Shown here piece by piece: positions 1 through 23,841 of a DNA stretch of 24,979 nt; position 1 is the first letter of the stretch; each line of letters starts with the position of its first letter. A model generated the notes under the pieces. The model was not told the origin of the DNA and searched no databases. It saw nothing but the letters and a program-made list of their open reading frames with translations. The position numbers were made by a program, and so were the translations under genes. Source of the stretch: a virus; IMG/VR virus record IMGVR_UViG_3300025305_000128, positions 1-24,979 of that record; one strand, given 5' to 3'.

Positions 1-22
1 AACACTGTTAAATAAATATATA

Positions 23-277
23 ATGTCTTTTGCTGACAACGGTGCGGAGTTTAAACTTTATTTAAATGAGGAGATCGGCAGGCTTAGAACGATAATTGAA
101 TCTTCTTTGACAATTGAAGAAGTTAAATCTGATTCTCATATGACCGCCTCTACTAACAAAGTGTTATCTATAATAGAAGAATTTAAACAAAAGCCATTTG
201 ATCAAGATATGCTCGCAGATATATTAAATATACAAAATTTAACAAAAGAAATAATAAACAATGGCAATAACACTTAA
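23..277 (+). CDS. Small hypothetical protein of the prohead block (84 aa)
   Basis: I do not recognise a named family. The protein is acidic, mostly helical-looking (for example EEIGRLRTIIESSLTIEEV near residues 16-34) and has no membrane segment or cysteine. It overlaps the next gene by 17 bases, so the two are probably translated together. In T4 the genes between portal (20) and protease (21) are 67 and 68, small prohead-core proteins; this gene lies in the equivalent place if the portal lies just left of the window, and its length is close to T4 gp67 (80 aa). That is a positional inference only, since the portal is not visible. No good Shine-Dalgarno is seen: only AT-rich AATAAATATATA precedes the ATG, so the start may depend on coupling to an upstream gene outside the window. 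Confidence 0.7.
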   Translation: MSFADNGAEFKLYLNEEIGRLRTIIESSLTIEEVKSDSHMTASTNKVLSIIEEFKQKPFDQDMLADILNIQNLTKEIINNGNNT

Positions 278-827
278 AATTGGCTCACAAGCAGAGCCAC
301 CCGAGGGAGAACTTCCAGCCGAAGAAGAAGGTCCAACTACATCTGTAAAGCTTATAATTCGAAAAACGCTCGATAACAATTTAATTGTCTCAGATCATCC
401 AGATGTTGATATAGCCATTGTCGCAAATGAAACAAAAGTTTTAGCTTTCCCTAAGAAATCTTTGAATGATGACGTTTATGCAACACAGGATAGACTTTTT
501 AAATTTTTAAGATCGAAGGGCACAATACAACTTGACAGTATTCGTGGCGGTAATATTTATGGCTCACTAGAAGCAACATATTTGCAAAGCGAAGATGTAG
601 ATTCTGTACAAATGTTAATATTAAATATTAGCAAATTCATTGATGAAGAAAGACCTTATTTCGAATATGTGGATGCATATGAAGATATGCTATCCGATAG
701 ATATGTCGATCCAAACGATGAAGAAACTACCGAATTAGGCGAAGTTCCACACGAAGAAACAAAGGGCAGTATACGCCCAGGCTGGCTAAGGGGTCCATAT
801 GGCACAGGTGCAGTATATAAAATCTAA
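261..827 (+). CDS. Conserved T4-like phage protein near gp21, possible prohead core (188 aa)
   Basis: The N-terminus carries an acidic, proline-rich stretch (residues 10-26) and then a compact domain starting around SVKLIIRKTLDNNLIV. The C-terminal motif KGSIRPGWLRGPYGTG (residues 168-183) and the acidic segment before it look like a signature I associate with hypothetical proteins beside gp21 in marine T4-like phages; this is recollection, not a search result. It starts 17 bases inside the previous gene, and its TAA overlaps the next ATG (TAATG), so the three genes are translationally coupled. Position suggests a structural or assembly role near the portal or prohead core, comparable in place to T4 gene 68, but no catalytic or binding residues can be named. 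Confidence 0.75.
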   Translation: MAITLKIGSQAEPPEGELPAEEEGPTTSVKLIIRKTLDNNLIVSDHPDVDIAIVANETKVLAFPKKSLNDDVYATQDRLFKFLRSKGTIQLDSIRGGNIYGSLEATYLQSEDVDSVQMLILNISKFIDEERPYFEYVDAYEDMLSDRYVDPNDEETTELGEVPHEETKGSIRPGWLRGPYGTGAVYKI

Positions 828-1138
828 TGATAAATTTAATATATTTTATATTAACAGCATATGGTCTAACTCAAATTTTAGTTTACGGAAAACTATTTGA
901 TTCTATAAGACCGACAAGGGGCAAATTAAAAAAATTATTTGAATGTCCAATGTGTGTGGGCTTCTGGGTTGGTGCATTTTTATTTGGAATTAATCGATAT
1001 ACGGAACTATTTACGTTTGAGTATAAGATAGCTAATTTATTTATTTTAGGTTGGCTATCATCAGGAACATCATATATTTTAAATATGGTTTTTGGAGACA
1101 ATGGAGTTAAACATGAATACAAATATTTGGACAAGTAG
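827..1138 (+). CDS. Small membrane protein with DUF1360-like CPMC motif (103 aa)
   Basis: The protein has about three hydrophobic segments: residues 2-22 (LIYFILTAYGLTQILVYG), roughly 42-57 around GFWVGAFLFG, and 68-88 (IANLFILGWLSSGTSYILNM). Between the first two lie a basic loop and ECPMCVGFWVG at about residues 39-49. A C-x2-C followed by GFWVG is typical of the DUF1360 family of small membrane proteins seen in bacteria and phages, whose function is unknown. It should sit in the host inner membrane. Its place beside prohead genes would suit a role where proheads start assembly on the membrane, as T4 proheads do, but that is inference. Its start overlaps the previous stop (TAATG), and its TAG is followed directly by an ATG that opens a 17-codon ORF leading into gp21. 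Confidence 0.75.
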   Translation: MINLIYFILTAYGLTQILVYGKLFDSIRPTRGKLKKLFECPMCVGFWVGAFLFGINRYTELFTFEYKIANLFILGWLSSGTSYILNMVFGDNGVKHEYKYLDK

Positions 1139-1192
1139 ATGGATGTTGCAACCAGTCCGCCGATGCTGCAAGGGCTCTTAGCTTATGAGTAA
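1139..1192 (+). CDS. Possible 17-codon coupling ORF before gp21
   Basis: An ATG directly abuts the TAG of the membrane protein (TAGATG). The frame stays open for 17 codons (MDVATSPPMLQGLLAYE) and stops at TAA in 1190-1192, seven bases past the A of the gp21 start codon at 1185. It fills the only gap in an otherwise overlapping series of genes, so terminating ribosomes could reinitiate and be carried to the gp21 start. It may equally be chance: an ORF this short carries little statistical weight and no recognised peptide is encoded. Confidence 0.25.
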   Translation: MDVATSPPMLQGLLAYE

Positions 1193-1790
1193 ATTATTAT
1201 TACGAGAATATTACGAGCTTTGCCCAGATGGCGTATGTGACGATCTTCTTACGGAAGATGAAAAGCGCATGGTCAAAGAAAACAACGCACTATTTTTAAC
1301 AGGTGTTATGCAGAGATCCAACCATTTAAATGGTAATGGTCGTGTTTATTCCGAAGATATTTTAAGACGAGAAGTTGAGAATTATGAAAAACTAGTAAGA
1401 GAGCGCCGCGCATTAGGAGAACTAGATCATCCAGATTCTGCCACTATTAATTTAGCAAACGCCTCTCACATGGTAACGGATATATGGTGGGACAAAGATT
1501 CAGTTATGGGCAAGGTACAGGTGCTTAATACCCCATCTGGACAAATATTGCGTGAATTAGTTAATTGCGGAGTTAAACTTGGCATTTCTTCTCGCGGCAT
1601 GGGTTCTGTACATGAGGATCAAGGCACAACTGTTGTTGAAGATGATTTTCAATTAATTTGTTTTGATTTTGTTTCCGAGCCCTCCACTGCAGGAGCATTT
1701 ATGGTAGCAGAAAATAAGAAAGCAAACATATTAACAAAAGCAGATCGAATTAATAGAGCACTATATCAAGTATTGAAAGGTAAAGAATGA
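1185..1790 (+). CDS. 21: Prohead core protease gp21 (T4 family)
   Basis: This is the serine protease that degrades the scaffold and trims the capsid protein during T4-type prohead maturation. The family's catalytic signature is clear: GELDHP at residues 78-83 (catalytic His82) and GISSRGMGS at 133-141 (nucleophilic serine in the SSRG motif). A downstream Asp in the segment DFQLICFDFVSEPS (154-167) is the likely third residue. The NGNGRVYSEDIL stretch (49-60) matches the family's N-R-x-Y motif ahead of the His. The length of 201 aa is close to T4 gp21 (212 aa). The start at 1185 is fixed by an in-frame TAG six bases upstream (1179-1181), with AAGGG at 1170-1174 as ribosome site. Its TGA overlaps the next gene's ATG (ATGA). 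Substrates should include gp22 at 11809 and gp23 at 12877. Confidence 0.93.
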   Translation: MSKLLLREYYELCPDGVCDDLLTEDEKRMVKENNALFLTGVMQRSNHLNGNGRVYSEDILRREVENYEKLVRERRALGELDHPDSATINLANASHMVTDIWWDKDSVMGKVQVLNTPSGQILRELVNCGVKLGISSRGMGSVHEDQGTTVVEDDFQLICFDFVSEPSTAGAFMVAENKKANILTKADRINRALYQVLKGKE

Positions 1791-2230
1791 AACAGGCGGA
1801 ATTAAAAAAAGTTTTAAAACCATTAATAAAGCAGTGTATAAAAGAAGTCATTTTTGAAGAGGGAGTACTCTCAGGAATTATAATGGAAGTGACCCGTGGA
1901 CTAGGAGCTTCTACGTTAACAGAATCAAAACAAGCAAATACACAGCAGCAAATACAGGAAGCGCAGCAAGTAAAAGAACAAGCATATATACAAGCAGAAA
2001 AGCAAAGAAAGCAACAAATATCTAATACAAAGACGCAAATGCTAGATGCGATTGGTCAAGATTCATACAATGGAGTAAATTTATTCGAGGGTACCAGACC
2101 ATTGAACGGTGGCGGCAACAAAACACCTGGGTCCACTCCTTTGGGCGACGTGGATCCCGCCGATGCGGGCGTAGATATCTCCAATATTTTTGGCTCAATG
2201 ACACAAAATTGGTCACAATTAATAAAATAG
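1787..2230 (+). CDS. Probable prohead core/assembly protein (147 aa)
   Basis: No named family is recognised with certainty. The first 40 residues form a basic-amphipathic helix pattern (LKPLIKQCIKEVIFEEGVLS, then IIMEVTRGL) of a kind common in small proteins next to gp21 in marine T4-like phages. Residues 46-80 are very rich in Gln, Lys and Glu and probably form a coiled coil. The C-terminal third is Gly/Pro/Asp-rich and looks disordered, ending in a short hydrophobic segment around DISNIFGSM. The ATGA overlap with gp21 implies coupled translation. Size, charge pattern and position suggest an internal prohead scaffold component that may itself be processed by gp21; this is inference. Confidence 0.7.
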   Translation: MKQAELKKVLKPLIKQCIKEVIFEEGVLSGIIMEVTRGLGASTLTESKQANTQQQIQEAQQVKEQAYIQAEKQRKQQISNTKTQMLDAIGQDSYNGVNLFEGTRPLNGGGNKTPGSTPLGDVDPADAGVDISNIFGSMTQNWSQLIK

Positions 2231-2239
2231 GAATTATAA

Positions 2240-2473
2240 ATGAGCAAGCCAGCCCACGTTACAGTTAGATCTAGACGGAACGATTCTAATGAAAGAGTAA
2301 TAAAAAGATTTATACGAAAAGTTAAAAAAGCAAAAATTATTGACTTATACAAAGAGACTTTGCGATATAAAAAGCCGTCTGAAGAAAAGAATGAAAAAAG
2401 GCGAAGAAAATTAAAACAAATCGAAAGAGAAAAGAGCAAACAAGCTACTAATTATAAAGAGCGCAAAAAATAG
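2240..2473 (+). CDS. rpsU: Phage-encoded homologue of ribosomal protein bS21 (77 aa)
   Basis: The protein is short, very basic and almost all helical. It follows the bS21 pattern: an N-terminal V-x-V-R strand (residues 7-10), an RF at 23-24 inside KRFIRKVKKAKI, then YKKPSEEKNEKRRRKLKQ (43-60), corresponding to bacterial bS21 'RRFKR..EKAG' and 'FYEKP..ER.RAK'. Its 77 aa compare with 71 in E. coli bS21. In cells bS21 sits on the 30S platform close to the anti-Shine-Dalgarno end of 16S rRNA and helps initiation. Phage copies of bS21 are known from marine T4-like phages, and such a protein could replace the host copy to favour phage late mRNAs. What is odd is its location inside the prohead gene series, 9 bases after a core-protein stop, with AGGA overlapping that stop as ribosome site. 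A merely basic, DNA-binding core protein is the alternative. Confidence 0.78.
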   Translation: MSKPAHVTVRSRRNDSNERVIKRFIRKVKKAKIIDLYKETLRYKKPSEEKNEKRRRKLKQIEREKSKQATNYKERKK

Positions 2474-2497
2474 AATAACAAGGGATAGGAATATATA

Positions 2498-2902
2498 ATG
2501 GCATCAAATGAAAAATGGACTCAATATGGCGTTGGATTACACAATGTTGGATCATATCAAGTTGCTGGACTTCCATATATAACCGGCTCCGCAACATTAC
2601 CACAAGCCGGGGAATTTAAAGCTGTATTTCCACAAGTTTCTAGAAACATCACTGTAATTAATCATGGTACTGGAACTTTGGCTGTACATTTTAATCCCAC
2701 AGGTTCTGGCAGGGTAATTGGTGGTCTTCACTATGTGGAGTTAGACAGTGACGAAGACTCTATCACCTTTAATGTTAAGGCTAGAGAAATATATGTTTCT
2801 AACAATTATGGTCATGATGGCAATTTTAGAATTATTGCAGAGTTGACACAAATTGACAATGGCCGCATGTTTAATATTACTGGCGCTGGCCTTACTGAAT
2901 AG
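2498..2902 (+). CDS. Virion structural protein, fibre-associated type (134 aa)
   Basis: The sequence is beta-rich with no membrane segment, beginning KWTQYGVGLHNVGSYQVAG and continuing with PYITGSATLP. It reads as one compact beta-sandwich domain (ITVINHGTGTLAVHFNP, SITFNVKAREIYVSNNYG, FRIIAELTQI). I associate this N-terminal pattern with small structural proteins beside fibre genes in marine T4-like phages; the exact function is unknown to me. The start has AAGGGA at 2486-2491 in front of it, and the gene lies 15 bases before the first large fibre gene. That pairing suggests a cap, connector or adaptor for the fibres, or a small decoration protein. Confidence 0.7.
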   Translation: MASNEKWTQYGVGLHNVGSYQVAGLPYITGSATLPQAGEFKAVFPQVSRNITVINHGTGTLAVHFNPTGSGRVIGGLHYVELDSDEDSITFNVKAREIYVSNNYGHDGNFRIIAELTQIDNGRMFNITGAGLTE

Positions 2903-2917
2903 GGGAGTCACACGCAA

Positions 2918-5092
2918 ATGGGATTTAAGAGCGGCACAAGCACTGGAGTTGTAAAGATCGCGGAACAGGCAGATGCCGAGTCCGATACAGGTGGAGTTGG
3001 CCAAATTTGGGTAAAATCAAATGCCCCATGTGACCTATTCTTTACCGATGATACAGGACAAGATGTCCGTATTACTAATGATGGTAGTCTTGCCGCAGCC
3101 CCAGGCTCGTCCGTTGCAGCAGATGATATCAACGCCGGGGATGCAGCAGTACTCATAACAACGGATACTGGCAATATAACCATCGACGCCGCAGCCAACA
3201 ACACAGATATTATATTTAAAGGCACAGACGGCGGCGCTGACACAACCTTCCTTACATTAGATGGATCCGAAAAGGGAGCCGCAGCATTTAACGACGCCAT
3301 TTCAGGCGCAGCAGCACTTTCGGCACACTCTTTAGCAATTCAAGATGGAGCAGTAGTTACAGGCTCAAGCGTGAATCATGGTCCGTTAACACTGCAAGGG
3401 ACATTAAGTTCTTCTGGCGGTGTCGTAGTTCTAGGCGGTATCATTGCAAATACCATTGAAGTCTCAAGCAGCATAATGACCGCTGGTGCATTAACGGTCA
3501 CAAGCTCCATTTCAGGTGCAGCCGCAATTCAAGGACACAGCCTAGCAATTCAAGCCGGTGCTGCCATTACAGGCTCATCAACCCATCATGGTGCTTTGTC
3601 AATTGAAAATGGCACCCTATCATCCTCGGCAGGTGCAGTGTTTTTGGGTGGAATTATTGCAAACACTGTCGAAGTTTCAAGCAGTATAATGACTGCTGGC
3701 GCACTAACGGTCACAAGCTCCATTTCAGGGGCAGCAGCACTTTCTGCACACTCTTTAGCAATTCAAGATGGCGCAATCGTAACCGGTTCAAGCATCAATC
3801 ATGGTTCTTTGACACTTCATGGCGTATTGTCATCTTCAGCCAATATTACGCTACCGTCAGATTCTTATTTATCATCTTCTGGTGGTGCAACCTTCTTGCA
3901 GGGCATCATTGCAAACACCCTTGAGGCTTCAAGCAGCATACAGACCGCAGGCACACTTGAGGCTTCAAGCTCCATTTCGGGAGCAGCGGCAATCGAAGGG
4001 CACAGCCTAGCAATTCAAGATGGTGCAACAGTTACAGGCTCCACCATATTACATGGTCCCGTATCTTGTTCACAAGGAGCTACATTCACCCAAGGATTAA
4101 TTACAGTTCGAACGATTGAAGCGACGGGAAGTATTGTTACACAAGGCAGTTTAGCCGTTAGTGGCTCCACTGTTCTTGGAGATGCCACAACTGACACAAT
4201 TAATATTACAGGCTCCACAACACAGCACGGACCTTACTCATCTTCTTTCGGCGGCACTTTTGTTCAAGGATTAATTACAGTTCGCACGCTTGAAGCGACA
4301 GGCAGTGTAACTACGCAAGGCGATTTAAATACATCTGGTGCTTTAAATGTTGCTGCTGCAGGCACGGTTGTTGGTCCATTAACCACGAGAGATGATCTTA
4401 ATGTGAGTGGCTCTACCGTCCTTGGCAACGCAGCCGCTGATACAATTAATATTACAGGCTCGACTAAAGTTCATGGTCCTATTTCCTCTTCTTATGGAGC
4501 TACATTCCTTGGCGGAATTCAAGCCACCAACATTGAAGCAACAGGCTCGACATTCATCAAAGGCGATCTAAATATATCATCTTCTCTTGGTGCACAAGTT
4601 ATTAATGTCGGTAAGGGTAAAAAGATGGTCCATTCCTCTGTGGACATCAGAACTGTGGATAGCACTGCCCAAACAGTTTGCGAACAAATCCTAGGAATTA
4701 CGATACCGGCAAAATCCGTTATAACCAGAGTTGTTGCAGTTGTTGAAGTAGATTCAAATCTTGGCACACAAACACATAATATATTTATCATTGATCAAGA
4801 CGAGCATCCAGGTGATGCGGATTTGACCACATCTCATGCCAATGTTAGCGTATCGACTGAAATATTGGGAGCAGGCGCATCGGGTACTAGATCAACAGAT
4901 AACGCTTCCGGTGCCGAAGATATTAATATGGGGGATGGAGTTGACGAAAAAGAGGTCTGGATTAATGATGATCTGCAGTGGGTAGGTGCATCCGATATGC
5001 AAGTGTATATTGCCAATGCAGGCGATAACGGTACTACAAACCCGTCTGCGGGAACGATTGGCGTCTACATTGAATACTACGGAATTGACTAA
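2918..5092 (+). CDS. Repeat-built fibre/adhesin protein A (724 aa)
   Basis: This is a large extracellular virion protein, most likely a tail or head fibre. The N-terminus (about residues 1-60) carries VGQIWVKSNAPCDLFFTDD and GQDVRITN, a pattern typical of the virion-proximal part of marine phage fibres. From about residue 128 come four copies of a roughly 70-residue unit containing HSLAIQ.GA..TGSS..HG, SSS.GA.FL.GIIANT.E.SSSI and TAGAL.V, followed by variant repeats (GLITVRTIEATGS). The regular spacing suggests a trimeric beta-helix or beta-solenoid shaft. The last ~150 residues (from about 575) are unlike the repeats, with a likely jelly-roll or lectin-type tip (KSVITRVVAVVEVDSN, VWINDDLQWVGASDMQVYI) that would bind the receptor. 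GGGGAG at 2902-2907 is the ribosome site. No enzymatic motif is visible. Confidence 0.85.
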   Translation: MGFKSGTSTGVVKIAEQADAESDTGGVGQIWVKSNAPCDLFFTDDTGQDVRITNDGSLAAAPGSSVAADDINAGDAAVLITTDTGNITIDAAANNTDIIFKGTDGGADTTFLTLDGSEKGAAAFNDAISGAAALSAHSLAIQDGAVVTGSSVNHGPLTLQGTLSSSGGVVVLGGIIANTIEVSSSIMTAGALTVTSSISGAAAIQGHSLAIQAGAAITGSSTHHGALSIENGTLSSSAGAVFLGGIIANTVEVSSSIMTAGALTVTSSISGAAALSAHSLAIQDGAIVTGSSINHGSLTLHGVLSSSANITLPSDSYLSSSGGATFLQGIIANTLEASSSIQTAGTLEASSSISGAAAIEGHSLAIQDGATVTGSTILHGPVSCSQGATFTQGLITVRTIEATGSIVTQGSLAVSGSTVLGDATTDTINITGSTTQHGPYSSSFGGTFVQGLITVRTLEATGSVTTQGDLNTSGALNVAAAGTVVGPLTTRDDLNVSGSTVLGNAAADTINITGSTKVHGPISSSYGATFLGGIQATNIEATGSTFIKGDLNISSSLGAQVINVGKGKKMVHSSVDIRTVDSTAQTVCEQILGITIPAKSVITRVVAVVEVDSNLGTQTHNIFIIDQDEHPGDADLTTSHANVSVSTEILGAGASGTRSTDNASGAEDINMGDGVDEKEVWINDDLQWVGASDMQVYIANAGDNGTTNPSAGTIGVYIEYYGID
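3298..4050 (+). repeat. Tandem ~210-bp fibre repeat units in gene A
   Basis: Four successive units each encode GAAA(L/I)..HSLAIQ, TGS...HG and (I/V)EVSSSI or EASSSI. The DNA between units is only partly conserved, but blocks of 65-80 bases are identical to blocks in gene B, for example 3518-3597 with 6166-6245 and 3632-3696 with 6493-6557. Confidence 0.85.
3518..3597 (+). repeat. 80-bp block identical to 6166-6245
   Basis: Starts GCAGCCGCAATTCAAGGACA and ends CATCATGGTGCTTT. It is base-for-base the same in fibre genes A and B, in the same reading frame, as expected from recent duplication or gene conversion between neighbouring genes. Confidence 0.9.
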
Positions 5093-5135
5093 AGATAAAA
5101 AATAACAAAGCCCATAGAGTTTATCCAGCTAGCGA

Positions 5136-5146
5136 TCTATTTATAG
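5136..5146 (+). promoter_or_regulatory. Candidate late promoter before fibre gene B
   Basis: TCTATTTATAG lies in the 86-base gap between fibre genes A and B, about 33 bases ahead of the ATG and 19 before the AAGGA ribosome site. It fits the recurring CTATTTAT motif found in the gaps before other transcription units. The rest of the gap shows no hairpin terminator. Confidence 0.45.
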
Positions 5147-5178
5147 GTGCTAATATTATATTCAAGGATAACTAATAA

Positions 5179-8100
5179 ATGGCTGATTTTGGATGGGCAT
5201 ATATAGGAGACGGCACAGCAATAACCGGCTCCGGTGGCGGCACTGCTGGCGGCAACAATTCACTACAATTTAAAACTAGTGACACTGCCATTTCTGGCAC
5301 CAACAGATTAACTTGGAACGACAGCACATATGTCATGGCTGTAACAGGTAACTTAGAAGTATCTGGTACTATTGTTGGTAATACATTAAATGTTAGAAAC
5401 GTAAATTATGTACAATCTACCATTATGTCACAGACTGGTTCTAACCAGTTTGGCGATACATTGGACGATGATCACTCGTTTACTGGCTCTATTCAGCAAA
5501 CAGGCAGTTATGGAGATCAGGGTAAATCATATTTCCTAGATAACATAGGAATTGGCACCACCACAGTTAGTCACAAATTAACTCTTTCTGGAGCCCTGTC
5601 AGCTTCTCACGGCATGCTGATGGACGGAGCAGCCAGTTTTAGTAAAACCGTATCAGTTTCAGGCAATATAAGTGGAACAGCCGCAATCCAAGGACACAGC
5701 CTAGCAATCCAAAACGGTGCAATAATTACGGGCTCAAGCGTTAATCACGGCTCATTGACACTTCAAAATGGCACCCTATCCTCTTCCGGTGGTGCGACCT
5801 TCCTAGGCGATATATTCGCAGAAAATGCAAATTTCAGCGGAACGCTTATTGTCTCTCCATACGCCGGGATTGGTCAGACATCCCCCGCATCTCCCAATTC
5901 AGCGACCAAATTTGTACATATTGGCAACAGTTCTGGGGACTCAGCCGGATTGGTCTTGCAAGATAATGAAAATACATGGGAAATCCTTAATAATGGATGG
6001 TTAGTAATTAAAGATGGGACTACAACTGTTGCCTACTGGAAACATACAGGCAACAACGACTTCATTCTTGCCACTCCGCTCTCTAGCTCAGAAGCAGTGA
6101 TGATTGGCGGAACAGCCACCTTTACCAAAGCAACATCAATTGTAGCTTCTGGATCAATTAGTGGGGCAGCCGCAATTCAAGGACACAGCCTAGCAATTCA
6201 AGCCGGTGCTGCCATTACAGGCTCATCAACCCATCATGGTGCTTTAACACTTCAAAATGGCACCCTATCATCCTCGGCTGGAGCAAGCTTTCTAGGTACC
6301 ATTATTGCAAACACTGTCGAAGTTTCAAGCAGTATAATGACTGCTGGTGCACTAACGGTCACAAGCTCCATTTCAGGAGCAGCGGAAATCGAAGGACATA
6401 GCCTAGCAATTCAAGCTGGTGCTGCAATTACAGGCTCGTCAACTCACCACGGTGCGCTGACAATTGAAAATGGTACCCTGTCTTCTTCCGCTGGTGCAGT
6501 GTTTTTGGGTGGAATTATTGCAAACACTGTCGAAGTTTCAAGCAGTATAATGACTGCAGGTGCACTAACGGTTACAAGTTCCATTTCAGGGGCAGCAGCA
6601 CTTTCTGCACACTCTCTATCGATTCAAGCCGGTGCTGCCATTACAGGCTCATCAACTCATCATGGCGCACTAACACTTGAAAATGGCACCCTATCTTCTT
6701 CCGGTGGCGCGACCTTCCTTGGTGATATATTTGCTAACGATGTAAATATAAGTGGCACATTGTCAACCGCTGGAGCCTTTTCGCCATCTAAAATATCTGC
6801 TTCTTCGGGAGTAAGTGCTCATGGCGGCTTTATAACAGACTCTACATTAGAAGTATCAGGAACAACATTCCTTGCTGGTGTGGTAAATATTAGTGGTAAT
6901 GTGCAACTTGGCAATGCTGCGTCTGATGTGGTAACCAGCACGGCGCAGATTACTGCTTCCGAAGGCTTAAAACTTAGCAATGCGTTATTCGCAAACAGTC
7001 AAAATATTTATAATGTTGGAACAATTACCGCATCAATTGGCTCGTTTGACGAACTACAAGTTAACACGCTAAAGAGTACAACAACCACAGCGCACAATGT
7101 TGATATGTCCGGTTCACTTATTATTGCTTCTGGAGCCGCAGATTCAGCAGATGCGGATGGATTTGGATTAATTATCAGTGGTGCCAACGCACACTTAACT
7201 TGGGATCATGGCAATACAAGAATGGACTTGTCAAAACCCTTGGCAATTACTGGAATCGTAAGTAGCTCAGCGACAATCCAGGGTCACGCTTTATCAATTC
7301 AAAGCGGTATGACAGTTACAGGCTCAAGCATTAATCATGGTTCACTAACTCTTCAAAATGGCACTTTGTCTTCTTCTGGTGGAGCGACTTTCCTTGGCTC
7401 TATCTTTGCCGAAGATGTAAATGTAAGCGGTACTTTGACTGCGGCGACATTCGCTCCATCAGCCATGTCCGGTAACGTCAAAATAAATGTTAACAGCCCA
7501 ATATTCGCTAACGGGCTCAACGTTTCAGGTACATCAGTTTATGCTGCCAATATCTCATCTTCCGGCGAGGCAGTCTTTGGCGGCGAAGTAATCTTCTCAA
7601 ATGACATATTAGCAAGCTCATCCTTAAAAATTGTCGGAGACATCAGCAGCGCCGCTGGTAATCTTATCGTAGGTGGCGGCACAACAATTAGTAATACGCT
7701 CAACGTATCAGGCACTACTACTTTGGCAGGCAATCTTTCTTCTTCTGGCGAAGTAATATTCGGTGGAGAAGCTATTTTTTCGAATGCTGTGTTGGCTAGT
7801 TCATCTTTAACGATTGTTGGCGATATTAGTAGTTCTGCCGGTAATCTTATTATAGGTGGCGGCACAACCATAAGCAACACACTTAATGTGACAGGCGCTA
7901 TTACTACAGCGGGCAATGTTACATCTTCCGCAGCCATTCAAGGACACTCTCTAGCAATTCAAGCCGGTGCCACCATTACAGGTTCGAGCATTAATCACGG
8001 CTCATTAACATTGCAGGGCACCTTATCTTCTTCTGGCGGAGCTACCTTCCTTGGCTCTATATTTACCGAAGATCTAAATATAAGTGGAGCCACAACTGTA

Positions 8101-8304
8101 GCAGGAAATGTATTACCAGTTGCCGATAATACTCATAATTTAGGAAGCGCATCAAAGAGGTGGGCAAATCTTTATACAGGCGACTTACATCTAAGAAATG
8201 AGCGAGGAGATTGGACAATACTTGAGGAAGAAGACTATTTATGTGTGGTGAATAATAGAACAGGCAAGAAGTATAAAATGATGCTTCAGGAATTAGAGGA
8301 TTAA
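5179..8304 (+). CDS. Repeat-built fibre/adhesin protein B (1041 aa)
   Basis: The N-terminal 140 residues are unlike protein A and include NLEVSGTIVGNTLNVRNVN and SNQFGDTLDDDHSFTGS, a known pattern at the start of marine phage fibre shafts. Six units with GH(S/A)L.IQ.G follow, interrupted by two unique modules. One is at about residues 225-315 (VHIGNSSGDSAGLVLQDNEN, WEILNNGWLVIKDGT); the other is at about 640-690 (GFGLIISGANAHLTWDHGN). Two 'GGEVIFSN' modules (about 795-915) contain SSSLKIVGDISS and IGGGTTISNTLNV. The C-terminus, LGSASKRWANLYTGDLHLRN then WTILEEEDYLCVVNNRTGKK, is a conserved fibre end that in other phages can precede an S74 peptidase chaperone; here the protein simply stops. 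AAGGA at 5164-5168 is the ribosome site. A host-recognition role is the best inference. Confidence 0.85.
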   Translation: MADFGWAYIGDGTAITGSGGGTAGGNNSLQFKTSDTAISGTNRLTWNDSTYVMAVTGNLEVSGTIVGNTLNVRNVNYVQSTIMSQTGSNQFGDTLDDDHSFTGSIQQTGSYGDQGKSYFLDNIGIGTTTVSHKLTLSGALSASHGMLMDGAASFSKTVSVSGNISGTAAIQGHSLAIQNGAIITGSSVNHGSLTLQNGTLSSSGGATFLGDIFAENANFSGTLIVSPYAGIGQTSPASPNSATKFVHIGNSSGDSAGLVLQDNENTWEILNNGWLVIKDGTTTVAYWKHTGNNDFILATPLSSSEAVMIGGTATFTKATSIVASGSISGAAAIQGHSLAIQAGAAITGSSTHHGALTLQNGTLSSSAGASFLGTIIANTVEVSSSIMTAGALTVTSSISGAAEIEGHSLAIQAGAAITGSSTHHGALTIENGTLSSSAGAVFLGGIIANTVEVSSSIMTAGALTVTSSISGAAALSAHSLSIQAGAAITGSSTHHGALTLENGTLSSSGGATFLGDIFANDVNISGTLSTAGAFSPSKISASSGVSAHGGFITDSTLEVSGTTFLAGVVNISGNVQLGNAASDVVTSTAQITASEGLKLSNALFANSQNIYNVGTITASIGSFDELQVNTLKSTTTTAHNVDMSGSLIIASGAADSADADGFGLIISGANAHLTWDHGNTRMDLSKPLAITGIVSSSATIQGHALSIQSGMTVTGSSINHGSLTLQNGTLSSSGGATFLGSIFAEDVNVSGTLTAATFAPSAMSGNVKINVNSPIFANGLNVSGTSVYAANISSSGEAVFGGEVIFSNDILASSSLKIVGDISSAAGNLIVGGGTTISNTLNVSGTTTLAGNLSSSGEVIFGGEAIFSNAVLASSSLTIVGDISSSAGNLIIGGGTTISNTLNVTGAITTAGNVTSSAAIQGHSLAIQAGATITGSSINHGSLTLQGTLSSSGGATFLGSIFTEDLNISGATTVAGNVLPVADNTHNLGSASKRWANLYTGDLHLRNERGDWTILEEEDYLCVVNNRTGKKYKMMLQELED
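6166..6245 (+). repeat. 80-bp block identical to 3518-3597
   Basis: The gene B copy of the block described at 3518. Just downstream, 6301-6377 nearly repeats 3653-3729, with one C/T difference noticed, so the homology between the genes is not confined to one unit. Confidence 0.9.
6493..6557 (+). repeat. 65-bp block identical to 3632-3696
   Basis: The block runs from GGTGCAGTGTTTTTGGGTGG to AATGACTGC and encodes GAVFLGGIIANTVEVSSSIM in both genes A and B. Silent third positions are conserved as well, which points to recent copying rather than selection on the protein alone. Confidence 0.88.
7882..7942 (+). repeat. 61-bp block identical to 9493-9553
   Basis: Begins CTTAATGTGACAGGCGCTAT and ends GCAGCCATTCAAG. 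It is shared between fibre genes B and C at the junction of a 'GGGTTISNTLNV' module with an 'HSLAIQ' unit. Confidence 0.88.
8232..8243 (+). promoter_or_regulatory. Candidate internal late promoter for fibre gene C
   Basis: AGACTATTTATG lies inside the last 25 codons of fibre gene B (encoding DYLC), about 65 bases before the gene C ATG. It is an excellent match to the motif in the gaps before gp22 and the sheath gene. As it is in coding sequence, the match could be chance. Confidence 0.3.
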
Positions 8305-8307
8305 TAA

Positions 8308-11300
8308 ATGGCATTTATAGGCAGCATATCGGGATCATCGGGCACCGGCACTACTCCAGTCACAGGCGGATTGGTAGTTACCAGTTCTGGTGGTGTCACC
8401 ACGCTTACAATTTCTTCAGATGGAATGCTTTCTTCATCACTGCCATGGAAAGGAAACGCTGAAGGTTTAACAGGAATCCCGTCGCAGCTAGAAACTACTG
8501 CATCATTCGACGTTACACACGAATTAACTGCATCGCGCACAATGTATGTAACGGCTTCTACCGTATTTATAAGCGGAAGCCCTAGTGCTGGCGGTGTAGG
8601 AACCGGATCATTTCAAGTAACAGGCTCCACAGTAATGCACGGACAAGTTACTGGTACATTAATTGCAAGTGGAACTCATGCAGGACCAGGAAGTTTTCTT
8701 GCCATTTCCACCCTAGGCGGCTTTGTGCTGGCTACTCCCGGTGGCGCAGTTACAGGAGTTAATAATAAATCTGAAAATAGATTAGTTTCTATAGGCAGCA
8801 CAACAACGGAGTTAGATGGTGAGGCTAATTTAACATTTGATGGAGACACATTAACAGTGGCCGGGGCAGTAACAGGCTCTGGAGCCGTCTCAGGACACAG
8901 CCTAGCAATTCAAGCTGGCGCAGTAATCACAGGCTCATCGACTCACCATGGAGCACTAACGCTTGAAAACGGCACTCTATCATCCTCGGGCGGTGCAACC
9001 TTTCTGGGCAGCATATTTGCAGAAGATGTAAATGTAAGTGGAACTTTGACTGCTGCCACCTTTAGCCCATCAAGCGTATCTGGCAATGTTGCAATAAATA
9101 TTAACAAGCCATTATTTGCTAACGGGCTGAACGTATCTGGTACGTCGGTTTATGCTGCAAACATCTCTTCCTCTGGTGAAGCCATATTTGGCGGCGAAGT
9201 AATCTTCTCAAATGACGTATTAGCAAGCGCATCCTTAAAAATTGTCGGAGATATCAGCAGCGCTGCGGGTAATCTTATCGTAGGCGGCGGCACAACAATT
9301 AGTAACACGCTCAATGTATCAGGCACTACAACCTTGGCGGGCAATCTTTCATCTTCCGGTGAAGCCATATTTGGCGGCGAAGTCATCCTTTCAAATGACG
9401 TATTGGCAAGTGCATCCTTAAAAATTGTCGGAGATATAAGCAGCGCTGCAGGCAACCTTATTATAGGCGGCGGCACAACCATAAGTAATACTCTTAATGT
9501 GACAGGCGCTATTACTACAGCGGGCAATGTTACATCTTCCGCAGCCATTCAAGCGCACTCTTTAGCAATTCAAGCCGGTGCAACAATTACAGGCTCAACC
9601 ATTAATCACGGCTCATTAACATTACAAGGTAACCTTTCATCTTCCGGTGAAGCAATCTTTGGCGGCGAAGTAATCTTCTCAAATGACATATTGGCAAGCG
9701 CATCCTTAAAAATTGTCGGAGATATTAGTAGTGCCGCTGGTAATCTTATCGTAGGTGGCGGCACAACCATAAGTAATACTCTTAATGTGTCAGGCGCTAC
9801 CACGACAGCAGGTAATATTACATCTTCTGCGGCGCTTCAAGGACATTCATTAGCAATTCAAGCCGGTGCAGTAATTACGGGCTCAAGCGTACACCATGGT
9901 CCGGTGACATTGCAAGGAACATTAAGTTCTTCTGCAGGGGCAGTACTTCTAGGCGGTTTAATTGTAAACACCATTGAAGCCTCAAGCAGCATAATGGCTG
10001 CTGGTGCGATGGAGGTAACAGGTAACATATCAAGTTCTGCAATTCTCAAAGGTCAACAACTTGCCATCCAAGAAGGTATTCAAGTTACGGGATCTAATCA
10101 GTTCCACGGCTCTGTAACGATTGACAATGGCACCTTATCATCTTCAGCAGGCGCGGTCTTCTTAGGCAATGTTATTGCTAACAGCACGCTAGCGACTAGT
10201 GGAACTATAACTACTGCTGGTGCAGTGTCGTCTTCTAAGGGTGGAATGTTCGTCGGAGGATTAATAACCCATACATTAGAAGCCTCAAGTAGTATTATGA
10301 CTGCTGGCAAGTTGACAGTTACTGGCTCTATCTCGGGCGCAGCATCCATTGCGGGTCACTCTTTGACAGTTCAGGCTGGCGCAGCCATCACGGGGTCATC
10401 GACCCATCACGGTGCGCTAACATTACATGGCATATTGTCATCTTCCCACAATATTACGCTCCCATCGGATTCCTATGTTTCCTCTTCAGGTGGCGCAACC
10501 TTCTTACAAGGTGTCATTGCAAACACCATTGAAGCCTCAAGCAGCATTTTTGCCGGTGGGCACATGGAGGTCACAGGCAATATATCAAGCTCTGCAATTG
10601 TTAAAGGGCACCAGCTTGCTATCCAAAGCGGATTCCAAGTTACGGGCTCTAGCATCATCCATGGAGCACTAACGCTTGAAAACGGCACTCTATCATCCTC
10701 AGGCGGTGCAACCTTTCTGGGCAGCATATTTGCAGAAGATGTAAATGTAAGTGGAACTTTGACTGCTGCCACCTTTAGCCCATCAAGCGTATCTGGCAAT
10801 GTTGCAATAAATATTAACAAGCCATTATTTGCTAACGGGCTGAACGTATCTGGAACATCAGTATATGCCGATGATATATCTTCTTCCGCTGGTGCTACAT
10901 TCTTAGGCACCGTTATTGCGAACACCATTGAAGCCTCAAGTAGCATTTTCGCCGGTGGACACATGGAGGTCACAGGCAATATATCAAGTTCCGCAATTGT
11001 TAAAGGGCACCAGCTTGCTATCCAAAACGGATTCCAAATTACAGGATCTGGTAAATTACACGGACCTCTAACAATTCAAGCCGGAAATATCTCTTGTTCC
11101 GTGGGGGCAAGCTTCCTGGGCGGCATCATTGCAAATACCATTGAAGCCTCAAGCAGTATAATGACTGCAGGGGCACTAACAGTTACTGGTTCTATCTCGG
11201 GTGCAGCAGGCATTGCCGGTCACTCTTTAAGTATTCAAGCTGGTGCCACCGTTACAGGCTCTAGTATCAACCATGGTCCGTTGACATTGCAAGGCACACT

Positions 11301-11718
11301 ATCTTCTTCTGGCGGAGCCACCTTCCTTGGCTCTATATTTACCGAAGATGTAAATATAAGTGGCAACGTCATGATGACACAACAGGCACCAGATGATCTT
11401 GGCGACGATACCACCGCTATTGCAATATCCGAAATGCTAAAGGGAATAGCCACAGTTACGCCAACACAAAATCGCAGTAAAGCTACAGATACAGCAACCA
11501 ATATTGTAGGCGGAATGACCAATCCAGAACCTAATTCATCATTTGATTTTGTTATTTTAAATGCCGCCACAGGTCCAGATAAAGATATAACAATGACTGC
11601 TGGAACTGGTGTTGATCTTGTAGGAAACATGGCAATTCGATCCGAGGATTCAGCCAGATTTAGAGTGAGAGCAACTAACGTTGCCAGTCCAGCGGTTAGC
11701 ATTTATAGAATTGCATAG
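8308..11718 (+). CDS. Repeat-built fibre/adhesin protein C (1136 aa)
   Basis: The longest of the three fibre genes starts three bases after gene B's stop, with GAGG in the end of gene B as ribosome site. The N-terminal 190 residues are gene-specific (SISGSSGTGTTPVTGGLV, FLAISTLGGFVLATPGGA). Eight units with an HSLAIQ-like core (variants GQQLAIQEG, GHQLAIQSG) follow, mixed with three GGEVIFSND modules and two copies of an AEDVNVSGTLTAATF module. One ~194-bp segment occurs twice with one base difference. The last ~115 residues (ISEMLKGIATVTPTQNRSKA, SSFDFVILNAATG, RFRVRATNVAS, ending VSIYRIA) form a distinct beta-rich C-terminal domain that I associate with marine phage structural proteins. No enzyme or S74 chaperone motif is visible. 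Probable role: long fibre shaft and tip. Confidence 0.85.
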   Translation: MAFIGSISGSSGTGTTPVTGGLVVTSSGGVTTLTISSDGMLSSSLPWKGNAEGLTGIPSQLETTASFDVTHELTASRTMYVTASTVFISGSPSAGGVGTGSFQVTGSTVMHGQVTGTLIASGTHAGPGSFLAISTLGGFVLATPGGAVTGVNNKSENRLVSIGSTTTELDGEANLTFDGDTLTVAGAVTGSGAVSGHSLAIQAGAVITGSSTHHGALTLENGTLSSSGGATFLGSIFAEDVNVSGTLTAATFSPSSVSGNVAININKPLFANGLNVSGTSVYAANISSSGEAIFGGEVIFSNDVLASASLKIVGDISSAAGNLIVGGGTTISNTLNVSGTTTLAGNLSSSGEAIFGGEVILSNDVLASASLKIVGDISSAAGNLIIGGGTTISNTLNVTGAITTAGNVTSSAAIQAHSLAIQAGATITGSTINHGSLTLQGNLSSSGEAIFGGEVIFSNDILASASLKIVGDISSAAGNLIVGGGTTISNTLNVSGATTTAGNITSSAALQGHSLAIQAGAVITGSSVHHGPVTLQGTLSSSAGAVLLGGLIVNTIEASSSIMAAGAMEVTGNISSSAILKGQQLAIQEGIQVTGSNQFHGSVTIDNGTLSSSAGAVFLGNVIANSTLATSGTITTAGAVSSSKGGMFVGGLITHTLEASSSIMTAGKLTVTGSISGAASIAGHSLTVQAGAAITGSSTHHGALTLHGILSSSHNITLPSDSYVSSSGGATFLQGVIANTIEASSSIFAGGHMEVTGNISSSAIVKGHQLAIQSGFQVTGSSIIHGALTLENGTLSSSGGATFLGSIFAEDVNVSGTLTAATFSPSSVSGNVAININKPLFANGLNVSGTSVYADDISSSAGATFLGTVIANTIEASSSIFAGGHMEVTGNISSSAIVKGHQLAIQNGFQITGSGKLHGPLTIQAGNISCSVGASFLGGIIANTIEASSSIMTAGALTVTGSISGAAGIAGHSLSIQAGATVTGSSINHGPLTLQGTLSSSGGATFLGSIFTEDVNISGNVMMTQQAPDDLGDDTTAIAISEMLKGIATVTPTQNRSKATDTATNIVGGMTNPEPNSSFDFVILNAATGPDKDITMTAGTGVDLVGNMAIRSEDSARFRVRATNVASPAVSIYRIA
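8947..9140 (+). repeat. 194-bp direct repeat in fibre C, copy 1
   Basis: Runs from CATGGAGCACTAACGCTTGA to ACGTATCTGG and matches 10660-10853 except for one base (G at 8988, A in the other copy). It encodes the module around GGATFLGSIFAEDVNVSGTL through ANGLNVSG. Confidence 0.92.
9493..9553 (+). repeat. 61-bp block identical to 7882-7942
   Basis: The gene C copy of the block shared with gene B. The bases on both sides differ, so the identical tract has defined edges. Confidence 0.88.
10660..10853 (+). repeat. 194-bp direct repeat in fibre C, copy 2
   Basis: Second copy of 8947-9140 with one mismatch. The two copies lie 1,713 bases apart in the same frame, so recombination between them would delete or duplicate exactly 571 codons without a frameshift. 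Confidence 0.92.
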
Positions 11719-11808: not shown

Positions 11809-12855
11809 ATGTCTTCTATGTTAGAAAAAGCAATTGTTGATGCATCAGCATTAAGAGAGGCGGCTATGAAAAATGCCGAATCAACAATACTAGAAAAATA
11901 TTCAACAGAAATTAAAGATGCAGTTGACATGCTTCTTGAGCAGCCCGAAGAGGAAGAGGGGCTTGAGGATATTATGGGAGGAGATCTCGGAGCAGAACTT
12001 GGCATCGGCGGCGAGGAAGAAGCAGAGGAAAGCCCAGTTGTACAAAGAATTGATTTATCTGCAGCCGAAGACGAAGAAGGTCAGCCCGCAGAAAACGAGC
12101 CAATTGAAGTTGAAATTGATTTACCTGCGTTAAGCGCAGCTATTGACCAGCTTGAAGCTGGCGAAGAAGATGTTGGCGGACTGGAAGGATTTGAAGACAT
12201 AGAAGGTTTGGGTGCAGCAGGTGCTCCCGACGAAATGACCGCACCAGAAATGGCACTTCAAGAAGATGAAGAATATTCATTAGATGAACAAATTATAGCC
12301 AAATTAGCCGAAACATTAGCAGTTGATCTTAGCACACCTGATGCTGGTCTGGGCGGAAGAACCACCCCAACATCACGAGTCAGAGAAATGGAAGATGTTG
12401 GCTTGGCAGCTTTGCGCGATGATGAACTAGCAGAAGAAAACGAAGAACTTAAAAAAGTACGCGACGAATTGATGGAACAAGCAAAGAAATATAAATCAAA
12501 AACCGCAAAACTTACAAAAACAATATTAAATTTGAAAGAGCGCGTAGGAAGCGTAAACTTATCAAATGCAAGATTACTTTACACGAATCGTGTTTTGAAT
12601 AGCACCTCCTTGAATGAGCGACAAAAAGAGAAAATTGTCGAATCTATTTCAAAAGCCGATTCGGTGGAGGAGGCGAAGGTTATATACGAAACCCTTCAAA
12701 GCGCAGTGGGAGTATCGAAAGATAATAAAGCTCCAAAATCACTCCGCGAAGCAGTATCAAGACCTTCATCAACTTTGCCAAGACGGCAAAATAATAATAC
12801 AAATACAGCTAATCCCGCACTTGTGCGAATGAAAAAATTAGCAGGTATCGATTAA
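11809..12855 (+). CDS. 22: Prohead core scaffolding protein gp22 (T4-like)
   Basis: gp22 is the internal scaffold on which the T4-type capsid assembles, later destroyed by gp21. Position directly ahead of gp23 and composition support the call. The N-terminus is helical (MSSMLEKAIVDASALREAAM); residues about 45-160 are extremely acidic with many Glu and Gly; residues about 200-245 form a strong coiled coil (DELAEENEELKKVRDELMEQ). A C-terminal conserved segment, NARLLYTNRVLNSTSLNERQ then KADSVEEAKVIYETLQS, is one I associate with gp22 of marine T4-like phages. The protein ends in RMKKLAGID, a short tail that in scaffolds can contact the shell. At 348 aa it is longer than T4 gp22 (269 aa), mostly through the acidic region. 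GGAG at 11799-11802 is the ribosome site. Confidence 0.85.
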   Translation: MSSMLEKAIVDASALREAAMKNAESTILEKYSTEIKDAVDMLLEQPEEEEGLEDIMGGDLGAELGIGGEEEAEESPVVQRIDLSAAEDEEGQPAENEPIEVEIDLPALSAAIDQLEAGEEDVGGLEGFEDIEGLGAAGAPDEMTAPEMALQEDEEYSLDEQIIAKLAETLAVDLSTPDAGLGGRTTPTSRVREMEDVGLAALRDDELAEENEELKKVRDELMEQAKKYKSKTAKLTKTILNLKERVGSVNLSNARLLYTNRVLNSTSLNERQKEKIVESISKADSVEEAKVIYETLQSAVGVSKDNKAPKSLREAVSRPSSTLPRRQNNNTNTANPALVRMKKLAGID

Positions 12856-12876: not shown

Positions 12877-14703
12877 ATGTCTGTATTAAAAAAATTAACT
12901 GAAGGCATTGTTAGTCGTGATCTACAGAAGGAAGGTGCTGCTCTTCTCTCCAAGTGGGAAAGAACAGGACTTCTAGAAGGGCTCAATAATGAGCATGGTC
13001 GTGATACAATGGCTCGGTTGCTTGAAAATCAAGCAAAAGAGTTACTTCGTGAGGCTTCAACCATGGCAGCAGGCGATGTTGAAGGATTTGCGGCAGTAGC
13101 ATTCCCAATTGTTAGGCGTGTATTCGGCAGCTTGGTTGCAAATGAACTTGTTTCAGTGCAGCCCATGAGCTTGCCATCTGGACTAATCTTCTTTCTAGAT
13201 TTCCAGGTGACACCCGGTACAGCCCCTCGATTGGGCGAAAACGACAACGATTCACTATATGGTGGCGGTGTTGTTGGTCAGCAACTCACTGGAGGTGTGG
13301 ACTTAGGAGACACAACTGCGGCTAACGCAGAGCGTGGCTTCTATGCCTTAAACCAAGGATATTCCTCACCGACAGGTTCTTACACAACCACTGGTGCAAC
13401 ATTCACTGTTCTAGCATCAGGTACATTTGGTGGTGTCTGGTATCTTTCTTCACAAGGTGGAGCAAATAAACTAGCCGCTGTCGATGGTTCCGGTTCAGTA
13501 GGCGCGGACATGGACGCAATTTTGCGCTATGATCCAGACCTGACATCCGGTTCAACTAAGTGTGTAATTGGTAGATTGGGAACGTCCAATCTAACACAGT
13601 GGAACAAGGATAACCTTGTTGGTGTTGTAGTTTCCGGTTCTAAGACTGGTCTAGGCAACGGTAAGCGTCATGGCTCACTACCCTTGGGTGGTACACAGCT
13701 ACGCCGACTTACACAATATAGTGGTTCTCATAAGGGTTCTCCCAATGAGGCACAACTACTAATTGTTGCTGTTGGTACTGGTAGTGCGAACTTGGAAGAC
13801 TTATCGTCTTCACTATGTGTTGGCGCACCTAAGATCTTCTTCCCGGAAGCAGATGATTTCGCAGGTAACCCCGCTGCTGCATCCAACGAAGCCATTGGTG
13901 CTGTTGTTGGACAGTCAACATGGGGACTTGAGAATGACGAAGGAATTCCCGAGATTGATATCAAGGTGGACTCCATCAGCATCACTGCTGTAACCAAGAA
14001 GCTCAAGGCTAAGTGGACACCCGAGTTAGGACAGGACTTGAACGCCTATCACAACTTGGATGCCGAAGTCGAGCTAACCAGTATTCTATCCGAGCAAATT
14101 GCTCTAGAGATCGATAGAGAAATTCTTGAAGATCTTGTTAAGGGTGGAACTGCTGGTGTTCGGTATTGGTCACGTCACGCAGGCAAGTTCGTTAACCGCA
14201 CCACTGGTGTTGAGGTTGGCGCAACAACTGCTACGCCTGACTTCACTGGTACAGTATCCGAGTGGTATGAGACACTTGTTGAAACAATCAACGATGTTTC
14301 AGCACAAATTCACCGCAAGACTCTACGCGGCGGCGCTAACTTCTTGGTGTGTTCACCTGAAGTTGCCAACGTTCTTGAGTTCACGGCTGGATTCCGTGCA
14401 AACGTCACAGCAGATGCTGACAGAGGTTCTGTCAGTGCTGTCAACGTCGGTAATGTGTCTAAGAAGTTCGATGTCTACGTCGATCCCTACTTCCCACGTA
14501 ACGTGGTTCTAGTAGGTCGCAGAGGCAACAGCTTCTTGGAGAGCGGCTATGTATACGCACCTTATGTGCCACTACAGGTCACTCCCACTATCTTTGGTAC
14601 GGAAGACTTCGTACCCCGTAAGGGCGTGATGACCCGCTACGGTAAGAAGATGGTGCGTCCAGACCATTACGGTCTTGTCATCTGTCTAGACCTTGTTGGC
14701 TAA
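12877..14703 (+). CDS. 23: Major capsid protein gp23 (T4 family)
   Basis: This is the shell protein of the T4-type prolate or icosahedral head. The N-terminal propeptide (KKLTEGIVSRDLQKEGAALL, then NQAKELLREAS) leads to a gp21-type cleavage site LLRE|A after Glu59, comparable to T4 cleavage after Glu65. It continues with AFPIVRRVFGSLVANELVSV and QPMSLPSGLIFFLDF, the hallmark of gp23. The middle (about residues 120-330) is Gly/Ser/Thr-rich and longer than in T4, probably the inserted surface domain. The C-terminal half carries IDIKVDSISITAVTKKLKAK, a WTPELGQDL segment and DVYVDPYFPRNVVLVG. Length is 608 aa against 521 in T4. After the first codons, Lys is mostly AAG and Arg often CGT/CGC, unlike the AAA/AGA-rich neighbours. 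A strong terminator follows. Both the initial SD and the codon use indicate very high expression. Confidence 0.95.
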   Translation: MSVLKKLTEGIVSRDLQKEGAALLSKWERTGLLEGLNNEHGRDTMARLLENQAKELLREASTMAAGDVEGFAAVAFPIVRRVFGSLVANELVSVQPMSLPSGLIFFLDFQVTPGTAPRLGENDNDSLYGGGVVGQQLTGGVDLGDTTAANAERGFYALNQGYSSPTGSYTTTGATFTVLASGTFGGVWYLSSQGGANKLAAVDGSGSVGADMDAILRYDPDLTSGSTKCVIGRLGTSNLTQWNKDNLVGVVVSGSKTGLGNGKRHGSLPLGGTQLRRLTQYSGSHKGSPNEAQLLIVAVGTGSANLEDLSSSLCVGAPKIFFPEADDFAGNPAAASNEAIGAVVGQSTWGLENDEGIPEIDIKVDSISITAVTKKLKAKWTPELGQDLNAYHNLDAEVELTSILSEQIALEIDREILEDLVKGGTAGVRYWSRHAGKFVNRTTGVEVGATTATPDFTGTVSEWYETLVETINDVSAQIHRKTLRGGANFLVCSPEVANVLEFTAGFRANVTADADRGSVSAVNVGNVSKKFDVYVDPYFPRNVVLVGRRGNSFLESGYVYAPYVPLQVTPTIFGTEDFVPRKGVMTRYGKKMVRPDHYGLVICLDLVG

Positions 14704-23370: not shown

Positions 23371-23841
23371 ATGAAAATGAAAAGTGATGAATTAGAAAGA
23401 ATAATTTTTGAAGCAACAGAACAGGTTTTAGCTGAACAGGGCTTGGGGAGCCGTCTTAAATCTGCATGGTCTGCTCTTAAAGGCGACAAAGGCAAGGAAG
23501 GCGGCGGCACTGTGGGAAAAAATCTGCAGGCTGCCGAGAAGGCTGCTAAGGGCAAAGAAGCTGCTGCTAGCGACATTACAGGCACAGCGGCTGGACAGCA
23601 ACTGTATGATGCAGTATACTCCACAATACAGGATGATTTTGTTAAAATTAAAGGCTATATTGATAAGCAAGATATGACATTCGCTAAGAAGCTTATGGCT
23701 CACATTGACGCCAGGACGGGCGACTTTACAGATGTCGGCAGCGGTGAAGCCCCCGAAGAAGAAGAAGGCGAAACAAGAAGAGCTGGATTTGTTCAAGAAT
23801 CGCTCATCAAGGCAATTCATGATGCTTTAGCAACACTCTAA
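23371..23841 (+). CDS. Hypothetical tail-region protein (156 aa)
   Basis: It opens with an acidic-amphipathic helix, KSDELERIIFEATEQVLAEQ, of a type common at the N-termini of marine T4-like structural proteins. Residues 30-75 are a Lys/Ala/Gly-rich linker (KGDKGKEGGGTVGKN, AAEKAAKGKEAAA). A small folded part follows (QQLYDAVYSTIQDDFVKIKG, DMTFAKKLMAHIDARTGDF), then a Glu-rich stretch (APEEEEGE) and a C-terminal helix FVQESLIKAIHDALATL. AGGA overlapping the previous stop is the ribosome site, and the next gene starts 12 bases after its stop. No family is recognised; context suggests tail assembly. Confidence 0.7.
   Translation: MKMKSDELERIIFEATEQVLAEQGLGSRLKSAWSALKGDKGKEGGGTVGKNLQAAEKAAKGKEAAASDITGTAAGQQLYDAVYSTIQDDFVKIKGYIDKQDMTFAKKLMAHIDARTGDFTDVGSGEAPEEEEGETRRAGFVQESLIKAIHDALATL

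Follow-up and report, generated by a model that had tools for sequence, protein, structure and literature searches.

A bS21 ribosomal protein homologue in the head gene series of marine T4-like phages

We analysed a 24,979-nucleotide stretch of viral DNA (IMG/VR record IMGVR_UViG_3300025305_000128; hereafter, the window) and find that, judged from its sequence, the open reading frame (ORF) at 2240-2473 (+ strand, ATG to TAG, 77 amino acids) encodes a real homologue of ribosomal protein bS21 that is conserved in a group of marine T4-like phages. The closeness of phage bS21 genes to head genes and the idea of a late retuning of host ribosomes are already published. Phage bS21 and its incorporation into ribosomes were reported by Mizuno (2019; PMC6375957), and Chen et al. 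(2022; PMC9723584) profiled 900 bS21 phages, of which 388 have core structural genes within ten genes of bS21, the prohead protease being the commonest structural neighbour (n = 310); they showed late expression and proposed both a ribosome swap and encapsidation. The initial annotation had taken the position beside structural genes as its notable point, a position that is real but that had already been published for hundreds of phages (PMC9723584). Our additions are modest: a near-fixed slot in one clade, a single phage lineage, the missing tyrosine of Bacteroidia and a hinge-insertion variant. With them comes a clade where bS21 amounts to a core late gene and not a scattered accessory one.

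The predicted product is basic (pI 10.8; 30 K/R compared to 10 D/E) and matches the Pfam family PF01165 (Ribosomal_S21) through residues 9-59, covering positions 2-52 of 55, with an E value of 4.8e-5 and 23.4 bits. As this lies under the curated Pfam cut-off of 27 bits, and the match to NCBIfam TIGR00030 (S21p, E 1.9e-4) is also under its curated cut-off, the single-sequence match is specific but sub-threshold; the PHROG S21 profile gives an E value of only 0.35. The protein scores 72.3 bits against a family profile built without it (best of 2,000 shuffles, 8.3) and 21.6 bits against a bacterial bS21 profile (best shuffle, 8.3), both so far over the shuffles that the match exceeds chance. Two IMG/VR relatives, L003 and L006, reach 49 and 44 bits against PF01165, above the cut-off, all 57 aligned family members match it, and the family profile retrieves solved bS21 chains from the PDB (E 7.3e-13). 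The HMM search suggested in the initial annotation thus succeeds for the family, and for the window sequence alone it gives a match slightly short of the curated cut-off. Across the phage family, the conserved residues are those of the bS21 core (F24, K29, Y43, KPS and a K/R helix); the window protein lacks VRxR ahead of the hinge.

An AlphaFold model of the window protein (pLDDT 90.5) has helices at residues 17-31, 33-41 and 46-76, the helical bS21 fold that the structure-prediction check looked for. Its best Foldseek matches are ribosomal bS21 chains (probabilities 0.98, 0.82 and 0.77), and at least 11 of the 15 PDB matches are chains of bacterial, chloroplast or mitochondrial ribosomes, most of these being bS21 chains also found by the sequence profile. 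None of the PDB matches has an E value <0.1, as expected for a protein that is small and helical. The identity claimed at the outset is borne out by the relatives' scores, the family-wide PF01165 match, the PDB profile match and the predicted fold.

The proposed place within the head gene series also holds. Upstream lies a gp21-type prohead core protease gene (1185-1790, +; PF03420, E 3.9e-30; PHROG 207, E 1.1e-52), whose stop is overlapped by the start of a gene for a small, 147-amino-acid core-like protein with a capsid-targeting-like N-terminus, MKQAELKKVLKPLIKQCIKEVIFEEG (1787-2230, +). bS21 follows after 9 nucleotides, and its likely Shine-Dalgarno (SD) sequence, read as AGGAA at 2229-2233 (+), shares bases with the TAG (2228-2230) that ends the core-like gene. 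Downstream come a small structural-type protein of 134 amino acids from the VGSYQV family (2498-2902, +), which has no match in Pfam or PHROG and is also found in L003, L004, L005 and L093; a gp22-like acidic scaffold protein (11809-12855, +), assigned by position and composition, with no significant match in Pfam or PHROG; and the gp23 major capsid protein (12877-14703, +; PF07068, E 1.7e-71). An ORF resembling the 11809-12855 product sits just before gp23 in L093. The same-strand order is gp21, core-like gene, bS21, structural gene(s), gp22-like gene and gp23. No terminator-like sites were found on the bS21 strand within 1-3500, sigma-70-like promoter sites are at the shuffled level with no excess, the T4 late promoter TATAAATA shows no enrichment in the window and is absent from the + strand, and neither the window nor the first fetched loci contain tRNA genes.

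Several features of this region stand apart from bS21. Three long repetitive ORFs (724, 1041 and 1136 amino acids, with repeats SSSGGATFLG, ISGAAAIQGHSLAIQ and GSSxxHGxLTL) occupy 2918-11718 before the gp22-like gene, which comes directly in L093, where they are absent. An amphipathic, capsid-targeting-like segment of the type L+xxVKExLxExLxEG recurs at the ends of differing head- and tail-module proteins (window 1787-2230 and 23371-23841; L093:1430-1924; C-terminus of L093:2543-3598). A 39.5-kb contig, L002 (IMGVR_UViG_3300025280_000067), shares at least 8470 identical bases with the window and continues upstream of it.

Because selection by bS21 itself was to be avoided, 80 viral contigs were collected with the window gp21 alone. 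Canonical bS21 lies downstream on the same strand in 67 and a variant in 2, and the remaining 11 stop before or inside the ~140-amino-acid gene; bS21 or its variant is present in 69 of 69 loci extending past that gene, typically directly after it. These loci include near-duplicates; with L003 and L006 added they give 63 distinct bS21 proteins, and 62 distinct loci have an identified upstream neighbour. By reading, this neighbour starts with an MKKSELKxxLKPLIKECIKEVxFEEG-like motif in 59 of the 62 (55 under a stricter pattern), and does so also in loci with insertions of large genes behind gp21; in many relatives it overlaps bS21 stop to start (gap -4). In the more distant L006-L009 (gp21 about 46-52%), bS21 is directly ahead of a gp22-like gene. 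In the window as in its relatives, bS21 thus keeps company with the genes for prohead protease and capsid proteins. A gp21 is also present in six further isolates (cyanophages, phiM12 and Vibrio phage YC), but these lack bS21, and direct tblastn of the window bS21 against cultured phages gave no match. Several apparent phage matches of the relatives were discounted as resembling bacterial sequence within phage records.

Such a near-fixed slot behind gp21 and a capsid-targeting-like core protein could mean that bS21 is packaged, and perhaps injected, having been recruited as a prohead core protein or a DNA-associated protein of the virion, a use also entertained in the initial annotation. Phage bS21 is very basic, and encapsidation was also raised by Chen et al. 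(PMC9723584), but we consider this use quite unlikely and find it unsupported. T4 gp21 cleaves after L/I-x-E (PMC9026906), a site that, by reading, the window bS21 does not contain; [LI]xE[AGS] occurs in 3 of 63 bS21 members compared to 39 of 62 upstream neighbours within their first 60 residues. The window bS21 also has no targeting-like N-terminus, and the presence of both features in its upstream neighbour argues against prohead use. The residues kept in bS21 (F24, K29, Y43 and KPS) are, moreover, those of the ribosomal protein core.

Strong purifying selection acts on the phage family, with a dN/dS of about 0.03-0.14 between close relatives, and bS21 is inherited together with gp21 in the T4-like clade, the identities of the two co-varying (Mantel r 0.65, 0 of 2,000 permutations). 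In a 110-sequence tree, built on 76 columns with limited bacterial sampling, the gp21-linked bS21 form one group (99/79; 100% of 200 bootstrap trees) set apart from the sampled Alphaproteobacteria, Gammaproteobacteria and Bacteroidia copies, so that the phylogeny proposed as a check returns a single phage lineage. Host assignment through similarity to bacterial bS21 failed, as this lineage lies apart from all three bacterial groups. With its long branch (0.9) and sub-threshold score, the window protein is divergent, as a functionless host-derived passenger might be; such a passenger is hardly credible given a dN/dS far under 1, the presence of bS21 in all loci of sufficient length and the co-divergence of its single lineage with gp21. 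It is possible rather than probable that, across this large marine T4-like clade, bS21 has ceased to be an optional gene of host origin and is an obligate, old component of the head operon, passed on vertically in a phage-specific form that includes the hinge variant. If so, these phages may rely for late translation on a ribosome modified by their own dedicated bS21 or, alternatively, on a link between bS21 and the core-like protein whose synthesis immediately precedes it.

Comparison with known systems places the window among several arrangements. Bacterial bS21 (rpsU of Gammaproteobacteria, Alphaproteobacteria and Bacteroidia) shares the Pfam family, predicted helices and KP[ST] hinge with the phage protein, but has neither the N-terminal leader specific to the phage protein nor its KVKK helix 1. 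The bS21 of freshwater Bacteroidetes phages (PMC9723584) is likewise a few genes from the prohead protease and capsid protein, but on the opposite strand, whereas that of the window shares the strand of its head genes and lies between the ~140-amino-acid core-like gene and gp22-gp23. The Pelagibacter phage HTVC008M, a marine myovirus, also has its own bS21, shown in 70S ribosomes (PMC6375957), but this adjoins CobS and heat-shock genes and clusters with Alphaproteobacteria in our tree, which together point to a separate acquisition. Neither HTVC008M nor PA5oct has its bS21 beside head genes; the neighbours there are CobS or ClpX and heat-shock genes, and a head position is thus not needed for a general role of phage bS21. 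Closest in gene order is the cultured Microcystis phage Mel-JY01 (PP395634), with protease, a ~150-amino-acid hypothetical protein, RpsU and capsid genes on the same strand, although its gp21 is only 46% identical to that of the window and its RpsU is a long branch beside, not within, the gp21-linked group. Mel-JY01 offers a cultured phage in which the swap and packaging hypotheses are testable.

The best reading of phage bS21, and in our view a fairly likely one, is a protein for late ribosome swapping. Made together with the head proteins, it would displace or join host bS21 on the 30S platform late in infection, beside the anti-SD tail, and could bias initiation towards the late mRNAs of the phage, which are abundant and for the most part SD-led, the gp23 mRNA among them. 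The claim that late genes are rich in SD sites is confirmed: SD-like pairing of -5 kcal/mol or stronger occurs at 13 of 20 gene starts compared to 19% of 484 other ATGs, and gp23 has a perfect 9-nucleotide SD, TAAGGAGGT (-13.5 kcal/mol); pairing at the bS21 gene itself is modest (-4.2 kcal/mol). Bacteroidia use a bS21 tyrosine to hide the anti-SD tail (PMC9723584; background in PMC9976891). This position, Tyr54, is Y in 12 of 12 Bacteroidia and aromatic in the Bacteroidetes-phage bS21 (PMC9723584), but not in the window bS21 or in any phage family member scored (3 of 63 not scorable), so that an SD-reading ribosome fits better.

The swap reading is plausible and agrees with published proposals and with one incorporation assay, in which E. 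coli 70S ribosomes took up the bS21 of another phage, HTVC008M (PMC6375957). Phage bS21 is expressed alongside structural genes (PMC9723584), and in Francisella a bS21 homologue alters the proteome with transcripts unchanged (PMC9578407). Counting against it are the long branch of the window protein, its score below the Pfam cut-off and its lack of VRxR. In the same study, purified E. coli ribosomes with HTVC008M bS21 had ~5% in vitro activity, compared to ~75% with tagged E. coli bS21 (PMC6375957), and such near-inactivity in E. coli-based translation makes inhibition a live rival: phage bS21 might enter host ribosomes mainly to poison or slow them, for shut-off or end-stage initiation, and not to favour phage mRNA. 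The helix 1 of the phage lineage, with its KVKK motif, is also unlike sampled bacterial bS21. We nonetheless think poisoning unlikely, as the assay used a mismatched host and the phage, by making a general poison along with its capsid proteins, would impair its own late synthesis.

Beyond these loci, phage-type bS21 contigs L093, L094 and L096 are binned in metagenome-assembled genomes (MAGs) named Acidiferrobacteraceae, Maricaulis and Flavobacteriaceae. These MAGs also hold a separate cellular bS21, and L093 carries phage head genes; the placements may be binning errors. A variant bS21 occupies the same slot in L084:5072-5404, L060:6069-6332, L099:3995-4333 and L100:3980-4243; L084 had first been scored as lacking bS21, a scoring that was overturned. 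The variant retains helix 1, PF01165 covers only its residues 5-34, and a conserved HPVHGTPECRNISK-like insert replaces or lengthens the hinge.
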